The notes beneath the pieces are model-generated. The model was given only the letters and a program-made list of their open reading frames with translations, ran no database searches and was not told where the DNA came from. From positions 1 through 64,000 of the forward strand of contig JAJFUH010000036.1 in the NCBI GenBank assembly GCA_021372535.1: a stretch of 64,000 nt of DNA, given 5' to 3'. Shown in pieces: positions 6,278-36,792 of the stretch; positions within the stretch are counted from its first letter, which is position 1; each line of letters begins with the position of its first letter. The DNA comes from a bacterium (GTDB lineage Bacteria > Latescibacterota > Latescibacteria > Latescibacterales > Latescibacteraceae). Both the position numbers and the translations under genes were made by a program.

Positions 6278-7852
6278 ATGGAACCCGGATACCTGCTTCC
6301 CATCGAATGGGCTATGATGATATGCTTAGTTGTTGGCGTTCTGGCCTGGGGAATCTACATGAAGGGGAAGATAGTTGATCTCGGCGACTCCTTTCTCGCC
6401 GGACGGAAAGTTCCGGGTATAGTCGCTTCAGTTTCAACGATTGCCACCAATTTTAACACGAATGATTTCATCGGCGGCGTCGGAGCGGCGTATGCCATGG
6501 GTTTCGTCATGGTTCACAGCAATCTCCTGAGCTGTTTCATCCTCATATTTCTCAGCTTTTTTCTCCTCAGACGGATTCGCGGAGCAAACGTTTTTACCCT
6601 CGGCGAATGGCTGAGAAAGCGGTATTCGCCTGCTGTGGGAAACATCTACAGCATGCTCTGGGCATTCGTCTGGATGCTCGTCAACCTCGGACTGTACATT
6701 TATTCCGGCGCGCTTGTTCTCCATACCCTTGTGGGCTGGAATCTCTATGTCTCGATTGTCGTTCTGACAGCGATTGCCGCAACCTATACACTCCTCGGCG
6801 GATTCGGCGCGGTGGTGGCGACCGATGTGCTCCAGATGGTGCTGATGTTTTTCCCTTACCTGTTTCTCGTTCCACGGATATGGGTGGCGGCGGGCGGTAT
6901 CACGGGCATGCGCTCCGGAACTCCTCCTGAAATCACTGATGTCTGGACATCCGGCAGCCCGTTCGGACATATCGGGGTCGTTCTCTCAGGCGCGTTTCTT
7001 CTTTCCATGAGCTACTGGGCGAGTGAAGCCCAGATCATTCAACGGCCGCTGTCGGCGAAGAGTGTGAACGATTCGACGGTGTCGTACCTCGGTGTCGGAT
7101 TCTGGCATGCGCTCGTTTCGCCGCTCATCATTGTCATCCCGGGAATTGCGGCGCTCAAGCTTCACCCGGGGCTGCCGAACAACGATTTCGCCATGCCCAT
7201 GCTGATTCGTGATCTGGTGCCGCGCGGCCTGTACGGGCTTACGATCGTCGGTCTCATGGCGGGATTCCTGTCGAGCGCCGATTCCCAGATCAATGCGTTC
7301 TGCACGATGTTTATCTCCGATATTTATAAACGTATGATCGTGAAAAACCGCTCGACAAGGCATTATCTGACCGCCTCCACGGTCGCCGGAGGGATATTTA
7401 CGACCGCCGCAATTCTCACCGCAGTTGCCTTCAGCTTTGCGCGGCACGGGATGATGCTCATGGCTCTGTCAATCCTTGCCACCATCATGCCGCCCTCTGC
7501 AGCGGTCATTTTACTCGGTGTTCTCTGGAAACGCATCGGTAAAACCGGGGCACTGTGGGGGATGCTGTCGGGATTCGCGATCGGGCTTGTGCTTGTTGTG
7601 CTCGATTTTCTCGGGTTACTGTCGAACATAGCCGGGAATACCATGTATTTCCGCGCCTCGGTGACATTTCTCGGGTCGGTTGCGGTTACCGTTCTGGTAA
7701 GCCTGATTATACACGAACAGTCTCCGGATATGGTTACCGAACCTCAAAAGGATGCGCCCCCCGGGCGGCTTTTCGAGAATCCGAAGTTTCTGGCTGTCCT
7801 GCTGTTTATTGCAGCCGTATCGATGTATGCGTTCCTGACGTTTGCGTTTTGA
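6278..7852 (+). CDS. sodium:solute symporter, SSS family
   Basis: The 524-residue inner-membrane protein has about 13 hydrophobic segments and typical SSS features: the DSFLAGRKVPG start after TM1, NFNTNDFIGGVGAAY in TM2, and GFLSSADSQINAF, where SSADS belongs to the sodium site in TM8. It should import an organic solute with Na+. The substrate cannot be read from sequence; the neighbouring UroD-like gene suggests a small metabolite, perhaps methylated, but that is inference. An AAAGGA ribosome site precedes the ATG. The last 50 residues include a final membrane segment (FLAVLLFIAAVSMYAFL). Intergenic repeats follow the gene. Confidence 0.9.
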   Translation: MEPGYLLPIEWAMMICLVVGVLAWGIYMKGKIVDLGDSFLAGRKVPGIVASVSTIATNFNTNDFIGGVGAAYAMGFVMVHSNLLSCFILIFLSFFLLRRIRGANVFTLGEWLRKRYSPAVGNIYSMLWAFVWMLVNLGLYIYSGALVLHTLVGWNLYVSIVVLTAIAATYTLLGGFGAVVATDVLQMVLMFFPYLFLVPRIWVAAGGITGMRSGTPPEITDVWTSGSPFGHIGVVLSGAFLLSMSYWASEAQIIQRPLSAKSVNDSTVSYLGVGFWHALVSPLIIVIPGIAALKLHPGLPNNDFAMPMLIRDLVPRGLYGLTIVGLMAGFLSSADSQINAFCTMFISDIYKRMIVKNRSTRHYLTASTVAGGIFTTAAILTAVAFSFARHGMMLMALSILATIMPPSAAVILLGVLWKRIGKTGALWGMLSGFAIGLVLVVLDFLGLLSNIAGNTMYFRASVTFLGSVAVTVLVSLIIHEQSPDMVTEPQKDAPPGRLFENPKFLAVLLFIAAVSMYAFLTFAF

Positions 7853-9104: not shown

Positions 9105-9193
9105 GGAGAGGTGCCAGAGCGGTTGAATGGGGCGGTCTCGAAAACCGTTGATGGCTTTGCCATCCCAGGGTTCGAATCCCTGCCTCTCCGCCA
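9105..9193 (+). tRNA. tRNA-Ser (anticodon CGA)
   Basis: An 89-base cloverleaf with encoded CCA. The acceptor stem is GGAGAGG/CCTCTCC with discriminator G, the anticodon stem GCGGT/ACCGT encloses the loop CTCGAAA (anticodon CGA, reading UCG), and the T-arm GGTTCGAATCC is canonical. A long variable arm (TGATGGCTTTGCCATC) marks it as class II and identifies serine. Confidence 0.96.
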
Positions 9194-9251
9194 ATTTCGG
9201 GAATAAATTGTGAAGAGATTATACCGTTTAGAAGTTTCGGTGGGCATTTGG

Positions 9252-9280
9252 TTGAGATTATATACAGTCGTCAGTAAAAT
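9252..9280 (+). promoter_or_regulatory. promoter for the HhH protein gene
   Basis: TTGAGA (9252-9257) and TAAAAT (9275-9280) are separated by exactly 17 bases. Transcription would begin near 9287, giving a leader of about 25 bases before the ATG at 9312. Confidence 0.45.
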
Positions 9281-9311
9281 CCGATAAACATGATAATTTT
9301 GATTTGCCATT

Positions 9312-9602
9312 ATGAATTCACTTAAGTCTAAAACAGATTCGCTGACAGTAATACCGGGCATTGGAAAATCGATGGCTGATGATTTACGAAATATCGGTAT
9401 TAACACTGTCAATGATCTTAAGGGAAAGAATCCCGAAAACCTGTATGAACTTTCTAATGAATATGCCGGCACAATCCAGGATAGATGCGTATTGTACGCA
9501 TTTCGATGTGCAGTATATTTTGCAGAAGGTGGCCGTGATGTTGAAAAATTAAAATGGTGGAACTGGAAAGATAAAAAGGAGCGCCTTAAAAGAAAAACAT
9601 GA
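9312..9602 (+). CDS. helix-hairpin-helix protein of the Cdd1 (pathogenicity locus) family
   Basis: The 96-residue protein contains a helix-hairpin-helix element (VIPGIGKSMADDLRNIGI, about 18-35) followed by VNDLKGKNPENLYE and the family hallmark DRCVLYAFRCAVYFAEG near 63-79. This matches Cdd1-type proteins, which are small, widespread and poorly characterised; the HhH suggests nucleic-acid binding. The C-terminus is very basic (KKERLKRK). No Shine-Dalgarno is evident. The gene sits alone between two serine tRNA genes, so its transcript could run into the second tRNA. Confidence 0.75.
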   Translation: MNSLKSKTDSLTVIPGIGKSMADDLRNIGINTVNDLKGKNPENLYELSNEYAGTIQDRCVLYAFRCAVYFAEGGRDVEKLKWWNWKDKKERLKRKT

Positions 9603-9810
9603 AATCGTCCGGTCCGAAGGGTTCGCTTCTTCGGAAGATGGAAGGGGGAATTTCACCCAACCTACTATTTTGGGGCGAAATCTGTTCGAATATTTTCGAA
9701 TGCACTCCGCCAGAGAACATATAATCGAATATATTATTATCTGTACTCAAGTTACATAGATCTTTGTCATGATGTCATGCCTTGAAATGTTGTGCATGAC
9801 CCTGTTTAAC

Positions 9811-9900
9811 GGAGAGGTGTCCGAGCTGGCCGAAGGAGCACGACTGGAAATCGTGTACTGGTAACCCCAGTCGAGGGTTCGAATCCCTCCCTCTCCGCCA
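9811..9900 (+). tRNA. tRNA-Ser (anticodon GGA)
   Basis: A 90-base cloverleaf with encoded CCA. The acceptor stem GGAGAGG/CCTCTCC is identical to that of the upstream tRNA-Ser. The anticodon stem CACGA/TCGTG encloses CTGGAAA (anticodon GGA, reading UCC and UCU). The variable arm (TACTGGTAACCCCAGT) is long, as in class II tRNAs. Confidence 0.96.
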
Positions 9901-29172: not shown

Positions 29173-32100
29173 ATGAATTCGCTTCATATTTTTGCTGTTT
29201 GTCTGAAAAGGCTGAGCTTTATCCTGATTCTTTTGTGCGGGGCATTTGTATCGCCGCACAGTGCCTATGCGATTGACAGTATCGACACAAAGTATTTTAC
29301 GATAATATACGATGAGAACGGAGAATTCACCGCCGGTGAAATTGCTAAGTTCTGCGATGATGTCTATGAAAAACTCATGGCAACCTATGATTCCTTCGAT
29401 GATAATCCCCGCGTTACCTGTCTCGTGAATGACGCGGTCGATCTTGCCAACGGTTATGCCATCTACTACCAGAATACGATCACCATATATGCCACCAATA
29501 TGGATTATGAACTTCGCGGTCAGTCGAGCTGGCTGAGAAATGTGTTCGTGCACGAGATGACTCATATGGTGGCGCTTAAAAAGGCTGCCCGTGGCCCGGT
29601 GAATTATACCGAAATAGGGGGGGGAAAATACAACAAGAATCCCGACTTCGACATATCCGTCGCTCTCTACCATCTCTCGCAGCCGGCGTGGTTTTCGGAA
29701 GGCACGGCGCAGGTCGCCGCCGAAACGTATGGTTCCGAGAGGTGGGATACGCACCGTGATATGGTTCTCAGAGCGGCATGGTATGAAAATTCTCTGCTTA
29801 ACTTCGATGAAATGTCCGTTCTCTCCGGTCAGAAGGGGATGGATGCCGAGATGGTTTATAACCAGGGTTATGCCCTTTTACGGTATATAAAAAATACATA
29901 CGGTTATGACAAGGTCATCGCGCTCAATAACTCCTCGGGTCTTTTCGATTTCAATCCTACCATCTCGGGTGTTCTCGGTATCAGCTCTAAAAAGCTGTAC
30001 GAGAACTGGAGTAAATCGCTCGATGAACGGTATGCTTCCTTCAGGAACAGGCCGCCTGTCGAGGGTGAACTCGCTCAGGACAATGGCGCAATGGACTATT
30101 TTCCGGCCGTTTCCCCCGATGGGCGCTATCTTGCATGGCTCTCGGACAGAGGCAGGGATTATGCCATCACGGACCTCATGCTTACCGACCTTTCAACGGG
30201 GAAAACGCGCCGCATTGTCAAGGATGTCGATTACCGGGTGTCATGGTCTCATGACTCGGCCAGGCTCATATATGTCAAACGGCCTCCGAAGTACCCGAAT
30301 TTTTACGATATCTATACATTCGATATCAAAACGGAAAAAGAAAGACGTATTTCCGTCCGGATGCGCGGTGTCGACCCCTCCTTTTCGCCCGGCGACAGTC
30401 TTATCGTGTTTGTAAGGAACGAGGGCGGCAATAATGCGCTCGCGGTCATGAACGCGGATGGCTCCGGGCTTCGCTACCTGACTTCCACGCACGACGGCAC
30501 CCAGTTTTATCGCCCTTCCTTCTCGCCCGACGGATCGCGGATTATCTTCGGACTCTACCGTCAGAACCAGGACCGCGATATTGCAATTATCGATGCCGGT
30601 GAGCGCTCGTACCGCTACAAGTGGGATATTGCGGATTCCACATCGGGATACTCGGATTCGACCTCGTTTGCGGAAGAGGCCAATTTCAAGCTCATGATCG
30701 GTTCATCGGCTGATGAACGCGACCCGTGTTTTCTGCCGGATGGCAGCGGGTTCGTGTATTCATCAGACAGGACAGGTGTTTTCAATATATACAAGCTCGA
30801 TTTTGCCACAAGCAGGGCATCACGCCTGACCGATGTCTATGGCGGCGCTTTCTGTCCTTCAGCCGCCGGAAACGGCGAAGTGTATTATGCGGGCTACAAG
30901 GCACGTGATTTTTCCATCTACAGGACATCTCTCGATAAAACCGTTGAAGAAATCAGAACGGTCAATGAAGATCGCACCTACCTCGTACAGCCCGAGAAAT
31001 TCGACCTCTCCAAAAATTTTGCCGCGCAGCCGCTGACCCGCAAGAGAATCGTGAATGCCATTGTTCCCACATTCAATATCGGTCCTTCGTTCATCGGGAG
31101 CAGGTTCGGTCTGAATGTCGTGAATATGGGCGCGGATGTCTATGTATCCGATCTGCTCGGTCAGGATGCATTCATGTTCTCCGGCAGCGTGGGAAAAAAC
31201 CTCAAGGAGGATGTCAGGCTCAACAACAGTTTCGACATTTACTATCAGCGTAAACTGGTGCCCGTTACATCGAGCACGTATACTCATTCACCGACTCTCT
31301 ACGCGGAAGTATCCCGTGCGGAGATACATAACCTCATCGGGCGTTTGAACGGCGAGGCAGATTCGGTGTATTTCGCCGATATCGACGAGCTGGGCTACAA
31401 GAATGTGCTCCATGACCTTCATCAGGAGATAACGATTTCGGACATTTACCGTCACGAATTCCGTGATTATACCATGGGTATTCACATACCCCTTGCCCCG
31501 CGTCACAGTTTCATTATCGAGGGGGGACACCGGGAATATTATGAAACGCTGGGACGCGATCAGAATGTAAAGGATTTATCGACTTTTACGGTGAACGGAA
31601 ATGATATTACCGATCAGGTGCCGGGCGCCCGGAGTTCATGGCTGTATCAGAACCGGTTTTTCACCGATCTCGAATACTTCAGCAGCAACGAGTTATCGCT
31701 CGCATATTCCTATTCCAGAATAAAACCTACAGCCGATTCGGACATTTCACCTCAGGGAACCGCGGCATTGTTCAGGTATAAGCACATGAGAGCCGCCGTT
31801 GCGGATTCCCTCGTGGGACAGATAACGCTGTATGTCCCGATGGGGATTTACAGCGACGGGTCGTTTGCAATGGGCTCCTATCAGATGGACCCGCTTCTCG
31901 ATGATTACCGGCCGTACACGAAAAAACTCGATGTGAACGAGTATCTGCTGTATCTCCAGAGAAACCAGAAAATGCCGCAGTGGAATCATGTTCTGAGCGG
32001 AACGGCGCTGATCGGATACAGGGACCTTTCGTTAAAAGACCCGTGGAAAGGCGAAGGCAGCGGTTATGAGTGGCCGCTGAAATACTACCTCGGAGGACGG

Positions 32101-32469
32101 ATTCTTTCGGGATACCCGTATTTTGCGTTCTGGGGCTCAAAGATTTTTTACAGCAGGTTCGAATATGTTTTCCCGGTTCAGCCTTATATATTCAGGAATG
32201 TATTGGGATTGCAGTTCCAGCGCCTCTATGGTTCCGCCTTTTTCGAGGCCGCCAAGACCTGGAATTTCCAGAAAATGAGCATGGACAGGATTCGCGCGGG
32301 TTCATTCAAACGGGATGTCGGTGTCGAATTGAGACTCAAAATGGTCAGTTTTTACCGGCTGACAACGCTTTTAACGGCAAGGATCGCATGGCCGCTCGAT
32401 GATATGAACGATTCCCCCTACAAAGACCAGCGCGATGCCCGGCGGTATTATTTCGAGCTGAGGATGTAG
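29173..32469 (+). CDS. metallopeptidase-like + TolB-type propeller + outer-membrane barrel protein
   Basis: The 1098-residue protein has a signal peptide (cleaved near AYA, residue 33), then a peptidase-MA-like domain with HEMTH at 127-131 and a likely third zinc ligand Glu176 in WFSEGTAQ. A TolB/PD40-type beta-propeller spans about 300-640 (FPAVSPDGRYLAWLSDR, PSFSPDGSRIIFG, DPCFLPDGSGFVYSSDRTG). The last 450 residues alternate polar and hydrophobic strands rich in aromatic residues and resemble an outer-membrane barrel. It should sit in the outer membrane with peptidase and propeller in the periplasm, perhaps for proteolysis or envelope assembly. It is followed 2 bases later by an LptE-like lipoprotein gene. 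Confidence 0.85.
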   Translation: MNSLHIFAVCLKRLSFILILLCGAFVSPHSAYAIDSIDTKYFTIIYDENGEFTAGEIAKFCDDVYEKLMATYDSFDDNPRVTCLVNDAVDLANGYAIYYQNTITIYATNMDYELRGQSSWLRNVFVHEMTHMVALKKAARGPVNYTEIGGGKYNKNPDFDISVALYHLSQPAWFSEGTAQVAAETYGSERWDTHRDMVLRAAWYENSLLNFDEMSVLSGQKGMDAEMVYNQGYALLRYIKNTYGYDKVIALNNSSGLFDFNPTISGVLGISSKKLYENWSKSLDERYASFRNRPPVEGELAQDNGAMDYFPAVSPDGRYLAWLSDRGRDYAITDLMLTDLSTGKTRRIVKDVDYRVSWSHDSARLIYVKRPPKYPNFYDIYTFDIKTEKERRISVRMRGVDPSFSPGDSLIVFVRNEGGNNALAVMNADGSGLRYLTSTHDGTQFYRPSFSPDGSRIIFGLYRQNQDRDIAIIDAGERSYRYKWDIADSTSGYSDSTSFAEEANFKLMIGSSADERDPCFLPDGSGFVYSSDRTGVFNIYKLDFATSRASRLTDVYGGAFCPSAAGNGEVYYAGYKARDFSIYRTSLDKTVEEIRTVNEDRTYLVQPEKFDLSKNFAAQPLTRKRIVNAIVPTFNIGPSFIGSRFGLNVVNMGADVYVSDLLGQDAFMFSGSVGKNLKEDVRLNNSFDIYYQRKLVPVTSSTYTHSPTLYAEVSRAEIHNLIGRLNGEADSVYFADIDELGYKNVLHDLHQEITISDIYRHEFRDYTMGIHIPLAPRHSFIIEGGHREYYETLGRDQNVKDLSTFTVNGNDITDQVPGARSSWLYQNRFFTDLEYFSSNELSLAYSYSRIKPTADSDISPQGTAALFRYKHMRAAVADSLVGQITLYVPMGIYSDGSFAMGSYQMDPLLDDYRPYTKKLDVNEYLLYLQRNQKMPQWNHVLSGTALIGYRDLSLKDPWKGEGSGYEWPLKYYLGGRILSGYPYFAFWGSKIFYSRFEYVFPVQPYIFRNVLGLQFQRLYGSAFFEAAKTWNFQKMSMDRIRAGSFKRDVGVELRLKMVSFYRLTTLLTARIAWPLDDMNDSPYKDQRDARRYYFELRM

Positions 32470-32471
32470 AC

Positions 32472-32975
32472 ATGTACAGGATTCTCACGGCTGTTCTTCT
32501 GCTGTTTTTATGCGCCGGATGCAGTTATTACAGTGTTTCCGGCTCGCTGCCGGGCCACATAAAAACCGCCGCGGTCCCGCTGTTCGAAAACAAGACGGTC
32601 GAAGCGGGTATTGTCGAGGACCTGACCGACGCCATCGAGGCGGCTATCATTAAAAACGGTAATATGAAGATAACCGGTGAGTTTCAGGCTGATGCGGTTG
32701 TCAAGGGCACGATTGTTGAGCTGATAGACGAAGCCGATACCTTTTCGAAAAGCGAGAGCGCCAAACAGTTCAAGATTCGTATTTTCGCCGATGTTCAGTT
32801 CTTTGACCGTGTTAAAAACAAGGCGATCTGGGAAGAAAACAAAATGGAGGGGTGGGCCCGGTACGATGCTTCCGGATCATCGGGCTCTGATGGTTTGACA
32901 CGTGAAGAGGCGATATCGGAAGCGCTCAAGATGCTTGCCGAAAAAATCATCGATAACACGGTTTCGGGATGGTAA
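32472..32975 (+). CDS. lptE: LptE-like LPS-assembly lipoprotein
   Basis: The 167-residue protein has a lipoprotein signal (lipobox CAGC, Cys17) and the LptE pattern: SYYSVSGSLPGHIKTAAVPLFENKT, then VEDLTDAIEAAIIKNGNMKI and a C-terminal helix EEAISEALKMLAEKIIDNTVSGW-like ending. LptE is the outer-membrane lipoprotein that plugs LptD during LPS insertion. GAGGA lies before the ATG and the gap to the upstream barrel gene is 2 bases, so the two are co-expressed. LptD is not in the window. Confidence 0.85.
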   Translation: MYRILTAVLLLFLCAGCSYYSVSGSLPGHIKTAAVPLFENKTVEAGIVEDLTDAIEAAIIKNGNMKITGEFQADAVVKGTIVELIDEADTFSKSESAKQFKIRIFADVQFFDRVKNKAIWEENKMEGWARYDASGSSGSDGLTREEAISEALKMLAEKIIDNTVSGW

Positions 32976-33235: not shown

Positions 33236-34984
33236 TTATTTTTCCTCCTGATTATACTGCAAGCCGGTTCCTGCCGGATACAGAGCCGAGATATCGGCGG
33301 GCAGCTTCCCGTGGGGCTTGAGCTTTCCGGAAATGACATCGATAGCGGCGTCCATGGAATGGACAGAAGGGGAGTTGGTTGCTACAAAAGCCCGGAATTC
33401 GGGGAATTCATTGATGATATACGGACTGTAAAATGATATGGCGATGGTTTGTTTATTTGTTTTTGTGATATTACGGATAAGATTCTTTGCTTCCTTCGTG
33501 AGCCGGTCTTCGGTCGGATGCGGTTTGATGAAAAATGAACAGAGAACCACATTTGCCTCTTTTACCCGCCGTAAAACTTCACGTTCAATGCTTTTGTCAG
33601 GAACCCCGATTACATTCATATGTTCGATGTATTCATAGGTCTGGACAAACTTGTTGTCATAAATTGTTGCGTCATAGCTTGAATACTCATCGACAAATGC
33701 TATCGAAACAATCGTTTGTTTTTTAAAATCGAGGGGAAGAATGTTCCCTTCGTTTTTAACGAGGGTGACCGAAGCTTCGGAAATATCTTTTGCGGTCTGG
33801 TCATACTCAGGAAGGCCGATACCTGCCACACCCCGCGGTGGAACATCGGTATCGATCAGATGAAGCTCCATTTTTTCTTTCATGGCCATGATGGCTTTAA
33901 TCGATGATTCGAACATGGTCATATCCATATGGCCTTCTCCGGCCTCGAATAACAAAAGGTCGATAACCGGTATTTCCGATTGTCTGGTCTCCGGGATAAT
34001 GAGCATGTCATATCCGGCTTTAAGGCTGGCAAGCACATAATTCATCTGCATGAGAGGGGATGAAGGGGCCTGTTCGTTTTCGATGAAACTGTTTACCACA
34101 AGACCGTTGAATCCCAGACGGTTCCGCAGTATCTCACCGATGAGATTATGCGCTTCCATGAGCGGAGACTGTGCCGGATCCACGCTCAGGATTATAGGTG
34201 TGCCCATGACAGAATATACGCCTGCATCGATACATTTCTTGAATGGTACAAGGCAGGAGGTGCTGCTGTCGGCGGATTGCGTGCCGGCGATCTTCTCAAT
34301 CGGAAAATATTTCAGGCAGGCGGCGACTCTGGCTTCCTGGCATCCCTTGATAAAATTCATGCTGAGATTGGTGACGGTCTCTGTATCGCTTGAAAAACTC
34401 CTGTTTTTGAACTGATCCTCAAATGCATCGGGCGTGTTGACGACCGGCGCAAAAATCCAGTTGATTCCCTGCGCTTTTGCTTCGATCCCGGTGATTTTAC
34501 CTTCACGATAAGCATAATCGATGGAACCGGTTGCGCCAATACCCATGGGAAACGTAAAACGGGTGGCTTTTTTATCCCAGTACCACGCTCCGGTTTCAAA
34601 ATCGGCGCCTATGAGGAGCGGTACGGTATATTGTTCCTGCATCTGATCGATTTCTCCGAGAAGCTTGTTGGCATTAAATTCGTAAAGGTTTTCCGATTTT
34701 GTTTTTTCCGAGGGAGGTATGAGATAAATACCGCCGGGTTTGTATTTACGGATAAGGGTATTGATATTCTGCATATAGGCGGGTTCGAGAAAATAACGGA
34801 TCGGATTGACACTAAGACAAAAAATCTGTCCGATCTTCTGCGGATCTGTCATGGTCGAAAGCGTATCGGCGAACCATGTGTCCGGAGTAGTTGTATTTAC
34901 CTGTTTTTCACATCCGGTATGGAATAAACACACTACAGCAAAAGACAGCGAGAGGACGAGCGAGGCATTCTTTTTAAATCTCAT
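33236..34984 (-). CDS. GH3-like lipoprotein lacking the catalytic residues
   Basis: The 582-residue protein has a lipoprotein-type signal peptide (Cys25 in FHTGC; His at -3 is unusual) and a glycoside hydrolase family 3 N-terminal barrel: SDPQKIGQ-like TDPQKIGQIF, PGGIYLIPP, PLLIGADFETG, WIFAPVVNTPD. Catalytic sites have drifted. The conserved KHFPGHG is KYFPIEK (225-231), and the nucleophile strand GLVVTD/S-D reads GLVVNSF, so the Asp is Ser299. A C-terminal GH3-like second domain with ASVTLVKNEGNILPL is present. It is probably a sugar-binding or regulatory protein rather than a glycosidase. Its ATG overlaps the SSS symporter stop (ATGA), so the two act together. Confidence 0.85.
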   Translation of the reverse strand: MRFKKNASLVLSLSFAVVCLFHTGCEKQVNTTTPDTWFADTLSTMTDPQKIGQIFCLSVNPIRYFLEPAYMQNINTLIRKYKPGGIYLIPPSEKTKSENLYEFNANKLLGEIDQMQEQYTVPLLIGADFETGAWYWDKKATRFTFPMGIGATGSIDYAYREGKITGIEAKAQGINWIFAPVVNTPDAFEDQFKNRSFSSDTETVTNLSMNFIKGCQEARVAACLKYFPIEKIAGTQSADSSTSCLVPFKKCIDAGVYSVMGTPIILSVDPAQSPLMEAHNLIGEILRNRLGFNGLVVNSFIENEQAPSSPLMQMNYVLASLKAGYDMLIIPETRQSEIPVIDLLLFEAGEGHMDMTMFESSIKAIMAMKEKMELHLIDTDVPPRGVAGIGLPEYDQTAKDISEASVTLVKNEGNILPLDFKKQTIVSIAFVDEYSSYDATIYDNKFVQTYEYIEHMNVIGVPDKSIEREVLRRVKEANVVLCSFFIKPHPTEDRLTKEAKNLIRNITKTNKQTIAISFYSPYIINEFPEFRAFVATNSPSVHSMDAAIDVISGKLKPHGKLPADISALYPAGTGLQYNQEEK

Positions 34985-36729
34985 GCAACCTTTTCCCTGT
35001 TAGATAAGATTCTTTGAATTACGACGAACAGTACGATGCCTGTGAAAATATAAATAAAACCATACAGACGCGGACCGAGAATGAGACGGCCGATTCCGAA
35101 CAGGAACAGCCACACGCTCAGCGAGCCGAGTATCCAGTTCAGAAAGTCAATTCCGATATGGGGCTTCGGATGTATGAGTTCGCCCGCAGGTATGTGGTCG
35201 GAGATTTTTTTCCAGAGCGAGCCGCCGGGCTGAACCCGTCGATAGAAGTCCCTGAGATGTGCATCGGGAACCGGTTTTGTCAGAAAAGTGACCGTTACCC
35301 ATGCAGTGGTGGATACGAGCGTCGTAACCAGCATGAGAACGGTGAAACCTTCATTGGTATCGTTGGAGTATCCCATGGCCATGAGAATGGAGGCGGTGAT
35401 GAGTGAAGCGACCATGGCGGTTATCTCGCTCCATGCGTTGATTCTCCACCAGAACCACCTCAGTATGTAGACCAGCCCTGTCCCGGCTCCTATGGTCATC
35501 ATGAATTTGAATGCCCCGACGACCGTGCTCATCATGAGCGTAACAATCGCCGAAACGATGAGGAGCAGGATGGTGGAAATTCGTGAGGCCAGCACATAAT
35601 GTTTCTGGTCGGCGTTTTTGTTGATGAACCGCATGTAAAAATCATTGACGATGTATGAGCTGCCGACGTTGAGATTCGTTGAAATGGTGGACATGTATGC
35701 AGCCGCGAAAGAAGCGAGCATCAGTCCTCTCAGATAGGGGGGCATGTGGTGTATCATTACCAGAATATATCCGCCTTCGGGATCGCCGGAGCTGGGATAC
35801 AGCGCGATAGATGCGAGCGCCACGAGAATCCACGGCCATGGACGGAGAGCATAATGGGCGATGTTGAACCAGAGCGCGGCAAGGAGCGAATTTTTTTCGT
35901 CTTTGGCGGCGAACATGCGCTGGGCGATGAATCCTCCTCCGCCCGGTTCGGCTCCGGGATACCATGCGGCCCACCATATCACGGCGATGTAGACGAAAAT
36001 GGTCGTCAGGGGCATCCATGTCCCGTCGAGCCTGGGAAGGAAGTTGAGAGCGTTCGTTCCGTGGGGGGAAATCGCCATGACCTGATTTTTCAATGCATCG
36101 ATGCCTCCGATATCCCTTATCGCAAAAAAGGCGAGCATGATGGATCCGGCCATGGCAATGATGAACTGGAAGAAATCGGTGACCACCACACCCCATAATC
36201 CGCTGAATGTGGAATATATGACCGTGACAAAAAGACAGATTGCAAGAGCGAGCCATTTATCGATTCCCATGGTCATCGAGATGATTTTTGCCATGGCTAG
36301 ATTAACCCATCCCATGGTGATGCAGATTATGGGAAGCGCGAGGTAGAGCGCCCTGAAACCACGGAGGATGGCGGCCGGTTTGCCCGAGTACCGGAGCTCG
36401 ATGAATTCGACATCGGTAATGACTTCGGCCCGCCGCCAGAGACGAGCGTAAAGGAACACGGTCATTATTCCGGACAGCGCCATATTCCACCAGAGCCAGT
36501 TACCGGCGATACCGTCTTTTACAACCATTCCGGTAACAGCAAGCGGAGTATCCGCCGCAAAGGTCGTGGCAACCATGCTGGTACCGACAAGCCACCAGGG
36601 GAGACTGCGGCTGGAAACAAAAAAACTCTGAATAGATGTACCCGCTTTTTTCGAAAAAGCCAGACCGATTCCGAGTGAGAAAAGGAAATACAGAATAATA
36701 AATGCCCAGTCGACCGTGTTGAGTACCAT
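34981..36729 (-). CDS. sodium:solute symporter, SSS family
   Basis: The protein (582 residues from ATG 36729) has about 14 membrane helices and SSS motifs: SFFVSSRSLPWWLVG, AADTPLAVTGMVVKDG in TM2, and AAYMSTISTNLNVGSSYIVNDFY, the sodium-site helix. I reject the longer in-frame start at 36792 because it lies inside the -35 box; the chosen ATG has AAGGA 9 bases upstream. It is the first gene of a two-gene operon with the GH3-like lipoprotein. Import of a sugar or amino sugar is plausible from that partner but not proven. Confidence 0.9.
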   Translation of the reverse strand: MVLNTVDWAFIILYFLFSLGIGLAFSKKAGTSIQSFFVSSRSLPWWLVGTSMVATTFAADTPLAVTGMVVKDGIAGNWLWWNMALSGIMTVFLYARLWRRAEVITDVEFIELRYSGKPAAILRGFRALYLALPIICITMGWVNLAMAKIISMTMGIDKWLALAICLFVTVIYSTFSGLWGVVVTDFFQFIIAMAGSIMLAFFAIRDIGGIDALKNQVMAISPHGTNALNFLPRLDGTWMPLTTIFVYIAVIWWAAWYPGAEPGGGGFIAQRMFAAKDEKNSLLAALWFNIAHYALRPWPWILVALASIALYPSSGDPEGGYILVMIHHMPPYLRGLMLASFAAAYMSTISTNLNVGSSYIVNDFYMRFINKNADQKHYVLASRISTILLLIVSAIVTLMMSTVVGAFKFMMTIGAGTGLVYILRWFWWRINAWSEITAMVASLITASILMAMGYSNDTNEGFTVLMLVTTLVSTTAWVTVTFLTKPVPDAHLRDFYRRVQPGGSLWKKISDHIPAGELIHPKPHIGIDFLNWILGSLSVWLFLFGIGRLILGPRLYGFIYIFTGIVLFVVIQRILSNREKVA

Positions 36730-36764: not shown

Positions 36765-36792
36765 AATATAGCGCAGACAGCATATCTGTCAA
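36765..36792 (-). promoter_or_regulatory. sigma70 promoter of the symporter/GH3-like operon
   Basis: On the minus strand a perfect TTGACA (36792-36787) and TATATT (36770-36765) are separated by 16 bases. Transcription should begin near 36758, about 29 bases before the ATG at 36729. Confidence 0.7.

Follow-up and report, generated by a model that had tools for sequence, protein, structure and literature searches.

A GH3-like protein lacking its catalytic residues, encoded in overlap with a sodium symporter in one family of Latescibacterota: a candidate non-catalytic transporter partner

The gene pair and its coupling

The window considered here, a stretch of 64,000 nucleotides from contig JAJFUH010000036.1 of a Latescibacteraceae metagenome-assembled genome (MAG; assembly GCA_021372535.1; G000 in our comparison set, 5.35 Mb in 236 contigs), carries on its minus strand two overlapping genes: one for a sodium:solute symporter of the SSS/SLC5 type, and one for a two-domain protein of glycoside hydrolase family 3 (GH3) that appears to have lost its activity (Table 1). 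We describe the pair, its distribution and its probable origin, and tentatively suggest that the GH3-like protein serves the symporter as a non-catalytic partner.

The original prediction had noted an ATGA overlap of the two genes, and the sequence confirms it, with both open reading frames at the stated coordinates on the minus strand. The symporter scores 135.9 bits against the Pfam family SSF (cut-off 22.8) and 163.8 bits against TIGR00813, the sodium/solute symporter superfamily, which is below the cut-off of 184 for that model; by sequence, SGLT1 and vSGLT are its closest relatives of solved structure. The GH3-like protein matches the GH3 N-domain with 135.6 bits (cut-off 27) and the GH3 C-domain with 48.7 bits (cut-off 31), and its nearest solved structures by sequence are the GH3 N-acetylglucosaminidase 6k5j and YbbD (E about 1e-28 for YbbD). 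GH3 and SSF are the only Pfam families above cut-off in the two proteins, with no match to a DctP- or TctC-type binding protein or to TRAP or TTT membrane subunits. The genome as a whole has an unusually large set of SSS proteins, PF00474 being found at 31 places, including a second match within the window (6392-7573, plus strand).

The signal peptide of the GH3-like protein ends in HTGC, and its cysteine, Cys25, is invariant in all four orthologs described below. The residue at position -3 is His, His, Phe and Ser in these proteins, none of them a classical lipobox residue, and because of this atypical position the proposed lipoprotein nature is retained as likely rather than as certain. The promoter that the two genes had been predicted to share does exist as a site upstream of the symporter, but a scan of the region found six such sites against 6.9 expected by chance from shuffled sequences. 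As this class of site is no commoner than chance, we did not count a shared sigma-70 promoter as evidence that the genes form one unit.

Table 1. Features of the symporter/GH3-like gene pair, in positions of the window.
Feature	Position	Strand	Details
SSS/SLC5-type sodium:solute symporter	34981..36729	minus	582 aa from ATG at 36729; PF00474; assigned from sequence
Two-domain NagZ/YbbD-type GH3 protein, predicted catalytically dead, with signal peptide; probable lipoprotein (Cys25)	33236..34984	minus	582 aa; PF00933 and PF01915
ATGA stop/start overlap of the symporter and GH3-like genes	34981..34984	minus	Sequence; conserved in 3/3 pairs
Promoter-like site 5' of the symporter	36765..36792	minus	TTGACA-16-TATATT, 11/12 matches
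Codon of Ser299, at the position of the GH3 nucleophile Asp	34088..34090	minus	Corresponds to E. coli NagZ D248 in the alignment
Codons of KYFPIEKI, remnant of the KHFPGHG catalytic loop	34289..34312	minus	Alignments; DSH stretch after it deleted
Codons 127-137, ADFETGAWYWD	34574..34606	minus	W134, W136 and D137 invariant in the dead clade

Loss of the catalytic residues and the predicted fold

The GH3-like proteins were aligned with E. coli NagZ and with 12 active relatives; the GH3 of locus L095, whose frame is split in two, was excluded from this motif table, although its pieces show KHFPGHG and VTDALD. Both peculiarities noted at the outset, Ser299 within GLVVNSF and the loop KYFPIEK, are present in the translation, and the loss of catalytic residues extends to all four orthologs. 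The nucleophile position (NagZ D248) is Ser, Ala, Lys and Lys, hence non-acidic throughout, while it is Asp in 12/12 active relatives. The KH histidine (NagZ H164) is replaced to give KY, KY, KF and KY, and the loop of the Asp-His dyad is deleted in 4/4 orthologs, whereas both this KH histidine and the GH histidine of the loop are present in every one of the 12 active relatives. PMC5063960 and PMC6403190 describe this dyad and its function in NagZ. Judged by these motifs, the GH3-like protein is catalytically dead in all four orthologs. Further positions of the NagZ pocket have changed as well: D62 is D, E, N and D, R70 is Trp in 4/4, and R133 is R, R, Q and C, three residues which we take to hold the glycone in NagZ, while K163 (K225 of the GH3-like protein) is retained in all four.

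These losses are accompanied by residues that are new. W136 substitutes an Arg of 11/11 active relatives and N183 an Asp, both being invariant in the four dead orthologs, and altogether 32 positions (including W134, W136, D137, N175, W176 and N183) hold a residue shared by the whole dead clade and found in none of the compared active relatives. Such clade-specific invariant residues suggest that the protein has been re-made and has not merely decayed. The protein could in principle be an enzyme with a different catalytic apparatus: Lys225 and Glu130 are retained within its GH3 fold, and phosphorylases occur among GH3 proteins (title of PDB entry 5vqd). A new active site should, however, be conserved, and with a nucleophile position that varies between Ser, Ala and Lys and an acid/base loop that is deleted, we regard this explanation as extremely improbable.

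An AlphaFold2 model, calculated from an 11-row alignment, has a mean pLDDT of 81.9 and a pTM of 0.87. The first eight Foldseek matches are all structures of B. subtilis NagZ (4gyk, 4gyj, 3bmx and 3lk6; TM by query 0.74-0.78), led by 4gyk (E 1.4e-31; TM by query 0.76), and the model thus preserves the fold of B. subtilis NagZ (YbbD).

It had originally been proposed that the dead protein captures a sugar or peptidoglycan fragment for the symporter, and a wider form of this idea is that, as a lipoprotein whose pocket has been rebuilt, it binds a ligand, some solute such as perhaps an amino sugar or a fragment of a glycan, which it would capture or sense and pass on to the transporter. The residues W134, W136, D137 and N183, new and invariant in 4/4 orthologs, are placed at or near the catalytic face, where K225 is also kept, and stacking on sugars is common for Trp side chains. 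In other phyla, moreover, the symporter has relatives located in amino-sugar clusters (see below), and the dead NagZ-like domain of Ngs1 provides a precedent in binding N-acetylglucosamine (GlcNAc), according to PMC5063960. Ngs1, however, keeps its GlcNAc-binding residues, whereas here the KH histidine has become Tyr or Phe and D62 and R133 vary. A crude proxy for the catalytic face, with strand ends taken from the secondary structure of the model, likewise leans slightly against a conserved pocket: 12 of 45 positions (0.27) are invariant in the dead clade as opposed to 0.31-0.44 across 175 quartets of comparably diverged active relatives (calculated without the incomplete L041 and L062), a small difference, and conservation of the face does not exceed that of the remainder of the barrel. 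We also know of no SSS transporter that needs a binding protein. A ligand-binding role therefore seems rather doubtful to us, and the fragment-capture proposal finds partial support, in its genomic context, while the residues that would hold the sugar are lost or vary.

Distribution and retention within Latescibacterota

Among 64 Latescibacterota genomes, with GH3-like matches counted at E <= 1e-30, orthologs of the GH3-like protein are present in four, which are all four genomes of the window's own family (f1: G000, G006, G007 and G008). The three other orthologs are 52, 47 and 42% identical to the window protein, and the sole further match in the 64 genomes is a paralog in G000 itself (C6, 29%). 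Orthologs of the symporter, 79-81% identical, are found in G007, a genus-mate of G000, and in G008. The next symporter relatives within the phylum are 39-43% identical, and no adjoining GH3 gene was seen in their neighbourhoods, which were checked by eye. An ATGA-coupled symporter is present in three of the four family genomes, the overlap being kept in 3/3 pairs and across two genera.

A sequence scan of the wider genome contigs with the GH3-like protein found no relative, and although a profile of the dead clade matched seven of nine genomes with related symporters (10 matches), the four loci that were read (L129, L130, L133 and L134) have intact GH3 motifs. As far as searched, the GH3 pseudoenzyme thus seems to be confined to one Latescibacterota family.

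Within this family the gene has been retained. That it is a decaying remnant en route to loss could be argued from its being the fastest-evolving of ten neighbouring genes and from the disappearance of the catalytic residues. Its reading frame is nevertheless open in 4/4 genomes, covering three genera at 41-52% identity, and the comparison of G000 with G007 gives a pN of 0.30, well below a (saturated) pS of 0.79, which indicates purifying selection on the protein. Furthermore, the dead copy is the sole PF00933 protein in G006 and G008, while G000 and G007 carry eight each, so that it has been kept where every active GH3 is gone. Taken with the many new invariant residues, this makes decay very improbable.

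Genes of the URO-D family (uroporphyrinogen decarboxylase-like; Pfam) adjoin the dead GH3 gene in G007 and G006, and on G000:C6 a gene that resembles them, as judged by eye alone, is found close to the active GH3 paralog (the genes concerned are L127:1219-2481, L126:3479-4573 and L124:5430-6503); the adjacency is possibly due to chance, and such genes may be numerous. Elsewhere in the window, convergent neighbours of the pair (29173-32975) encode a PD40 beta-propeller protein of 1098 residues, which matches peptidase MA below threshold, and then an LptE-family lipoprotein, and two close tRNA-Ser genes with the anticodons cga and gga are found at 9105-9900.

Related symporters in other phyla and the origin of the pair

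Genome contigs were scanned with the symporter alignment, and the best 80 of 453 confirmed relatives, corresponding to 80 loci, were considered together with their flanks. Among these, a GH3 gene flanks the symporter in 12 loci, namely the Latescibacterota one and 11 of the 79 others, the latter belonging to Calditrichota, Marinimicrobia, KSB1 and Gemmatimonadota. In 11/11 of these others the loop still reads KHFPGHG and the nucleophile is still Asp (in L095 in two frame pieces). Symporter pairs retaining Asp and His had been named in the original prediction as an argument against it; such pairs do exist outside the family, but they involve ancestral-type enzymes and not orthologs of the dead form. 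According to tblastn searches with the marker families checked, the flanks of the best 80 loci further contain a second, different SSS symporter in 23 cases (17 strong, at least 240 bits; six weak, 53-61 bits). A serine hydrolase of the beta-lactamase family is encoded at 16 loci, NamZ at 14 and a kinase of the BadF type at 11. The remaining loci among the 80 are mostly from Acidobacteriota and have other neighbours, and given these differing neighbours the symporter substrate may differ among clades.

Several of these loci deserve description in their own right. A Gemmatimonadota MAG has two tandem GH3 genes directly upstream of the symporter, with intact KHFPGHG loops in both and the second fused to a beta-lactamase-family domain (L033:1-5001). 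L030, L041 and L046 have GH3-serine hydrolase fusions followed by two different tandem SSS symporters (SSS1 and SSS2), an arrangement that looks like an amino-sugar salvage operon common to several phyla and containing a paralogous symporter pair; a NagB label for L030:6833-8293 was dropped, as no Pfam match was found. The contig of L049 is labelled Bordetella parapertussis, yet its symporter branches tightly with a Bryobacterales (Acidobacteriota) protein (branch 0.034), and the record probably represents a mislabelled MAG.

In a quick tree of 84 symporter sequences (L101, which has a stop within the translated match, was excluded), the three Latescibacterota symporters form one clade with a support of 100. 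Nearest to them by path are L029 and the NagZ-cluster symporters of Calditrichota and Marinimicrobia; the peptidoglycan-cluster label was set by hand on 22 of the 84 rows, leaving L081 (beta-lactamase hit) and L082 (weak kinase hit) unlabelled. In L029, a lytic transglycosylase domain protein is encoded downstream of the symporter on the same strand. The four dead GH3 copies likewise form one clade (support 100/100), which falls within the NagZ-type half of the GH3 tree, and join the intact paralog C6 of G000 at 90/89, a position that is suggestive only. Elsewhere, genes for an intact NagZ, for NamZ and for serine hydrolase cluster with the same symporter subfamily, which makes a NagZ-type enzyme the probable ancestor of the dead protein, and duplication followed by loss of activity would be the simplest history.

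The gene content of the family genomes also bears on the substrate. AnmK was found in 0/4 of them, and MurQ above cut-off in 0/4, weak partial matches being read as other SIS-domain proteins; NamZ is present in one of the four only (G007), and glucosamine-6-phosphate isomerase-family proteins in 4/4. A peptidoglycan sugar recycling cluster of NagZ, NamZ and genes for processing N-acetylmuramic acid (MurNAc) is thus not seen in the family genomes, and the case for MurNAc as the substrate taken up is weakened by these absences. The symporter could possibly carry an amino sugar or another solute.

A possible non-catalytic partner of the symporter

We tentatively favour, as a possible reading of the pair, that the GH3-like pseudoenzyme, anchored to the membrane on its periplasmic side, serves the Na+ symporter as a partner without catalytic activity. 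The ATGA overlap would lead to both proteins being made in a fixed ratio; the GH3-like protein, held by its presumed membrane anchor, would dock on the periplasmic face of the symporter and could there assist its folding, stability or gating, and in this way influence transport. Its mode of action would resemble that of the glycosidase-like heavy chains 4F2hc and rBAT with the LeuT-fold transporters of animals. In PMC8537225 these heavy chains are described as glycosidase-like without proven activity, with roles mainly in transporter stability and trafficking. As the GlcNAc-holding residues of NagZ lack conservation here, sugar capture is disfavoured and a scaffold role is left, and it is this variation together with the 4F2hc/rBAT precedent that places the partner role ahead of ligand binding.

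A number of observations weigh against such a partner role. The two genes had been proposed to form one functional unit, and while the coupling in three of four genomes agrees with this, no symporter ortholog was found in G006 at E <= 1e-60 (best match 25% identical; the assembly is 80% complete, in 800 contigs). The G006 gene sits between a URO-D family gene (Pfam) and a glycosyltransferase-like gene (by eye), in a neighbourhood that is complete on its contig and lacks a symporter. Its branch in the GH3 tree (0.56) falls within the range of the others (0.40, 0.50 and 0.89), suggesting that the protein has been kept without this symporter, and the pairing is not obligatory. Between G000 and G007, moreover, the GH3-like protein is 52.9% identical as opposed to 81.2% for the symporter, making it the least conserved of ten genes in the syntenic block (the other nine range from 55.2 to 81.6%), and this fast evolution does not support a conserved docking surface. 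The invariant W134, W136, D137 and N183 on or near the catalytic face would also fit ligand binding, and to our knowledge no bacterial SSS transporter with such a subunit has been described.

Some of these points could equally reflect two proteins that share nothing but an operon, the dead GH3 acting alone in the envelope in a glycan-binding, structural or regulatory capacity and the symporter working by itself. Operon-mates need not interact, and both the solitary gene of G006 and the very different evolutionary rates of the two proteins agree with separate functions. On the other hand, the four-base overlap is kept in 3/3 pairs from two genera, and related symporters lie near GH3 genes in four other phyla, so that we consider mere operon sharing unlikely.

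Beyond the partner role itself, the pair could represent a two-subunit SSS (LeuT-fold) transporter with a lipid-anchored dead-glycosidase subunit, evolved independently of 4F2hc/rBAT and recycled from the NagZ that once fed it, although we hold this fuller scenario to be doubtful. Our literature search, which did not cover most subscription journals, brought up no paper that pairs a symporter with a dead GH3 protein. If true, a degradative enzyme would in bacteria have come to serve, structurally or as a regulator, within the transporter that handles its former product. It would also caution against labelling every GH3 protein from uncultured bacteria a hydrolase, the sole GH3 being apparently non-catalytic in two of the four family genomes.

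Comparison with known systems

The best structural and among the best sequence matches of the window protein is B. subtilis NagZ (YbbD; 3bmx, 4gyj, 4gyk), a two-domain GH3 beta-N-acetylglucosaminidase that is also a lipoprotein according to its PDB molecule name. Unlike this enzyme, the window protein has no Asp nucleophile, no Asp-His loop and no KH histidine, and is coupled to a symporter. The clusters of NagZ, NamZ, serine hydrolase and SSS symporter in Calditrichota, Marinimicrobia, KSB1 and Gemmatimonadota resemble the pair in that the same symporter subfamily (50-62% identity over the match) is found near a NagZ-type GH3. There, however, the GH3 has kept its catalytic residues and is, at several loci, joined to a domain of the beta-lactamase family, whereas in Latescibacterota the GH3 is apparently dead and the remainder of the cluster is absent.

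Ngs1 of Candida albicans, as described in PMC5063960, likewise has a NagZ-like GH3 domain without an intact Asp-His dyad and is no longer a hydrolase. It keeps the GlcNAc-binding residues, a KH175/6AA mutant having served as control in the binding test, and is fused to an acetyltransferase, whereas the window protein has lost binding residues, with the KH histidine gone and D62 and R133 varying, and has a signal peptide. From the description of Tf_MurT, the MurNAc symporter of Tannerella forsythia, in PMC5790795, this transporter is similar in belonging to the sodium symporter superfamily and in being encoded with amino-sugar genes. It differs in that these genes are murK and murQ, with no GH3. 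With neither MurQ nor AnmK found in the window's family, a MurNAc importer like Tf_MurT is not supported.

The LeuT fold is common to SSS symporters and to the partner transporters of 4F2hc and rBAT. These heavy chains, as described in PMC8537225, share with the window protein a glycosidase-like ectodomain without proven activity and, if our reading holds, a membrane transporter as partner. They are of the GH13 type, are anchored by a transmembrane helix and are covalently linked to a light chain of the SLC7 family, whereas the window protein has a GH3 fold, a probable lipid anchor and an SSS partner, and thus lies outside the 4F2hc/rBAT type as defined by a GH13-like ectodomain and an SLC7 light chain. 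We suggest that the GH3-like protein and its symporter may at most work like the 4F2hc/rBAT system, and would then form a bacterial parallel to the heteromeric transporters of animals.

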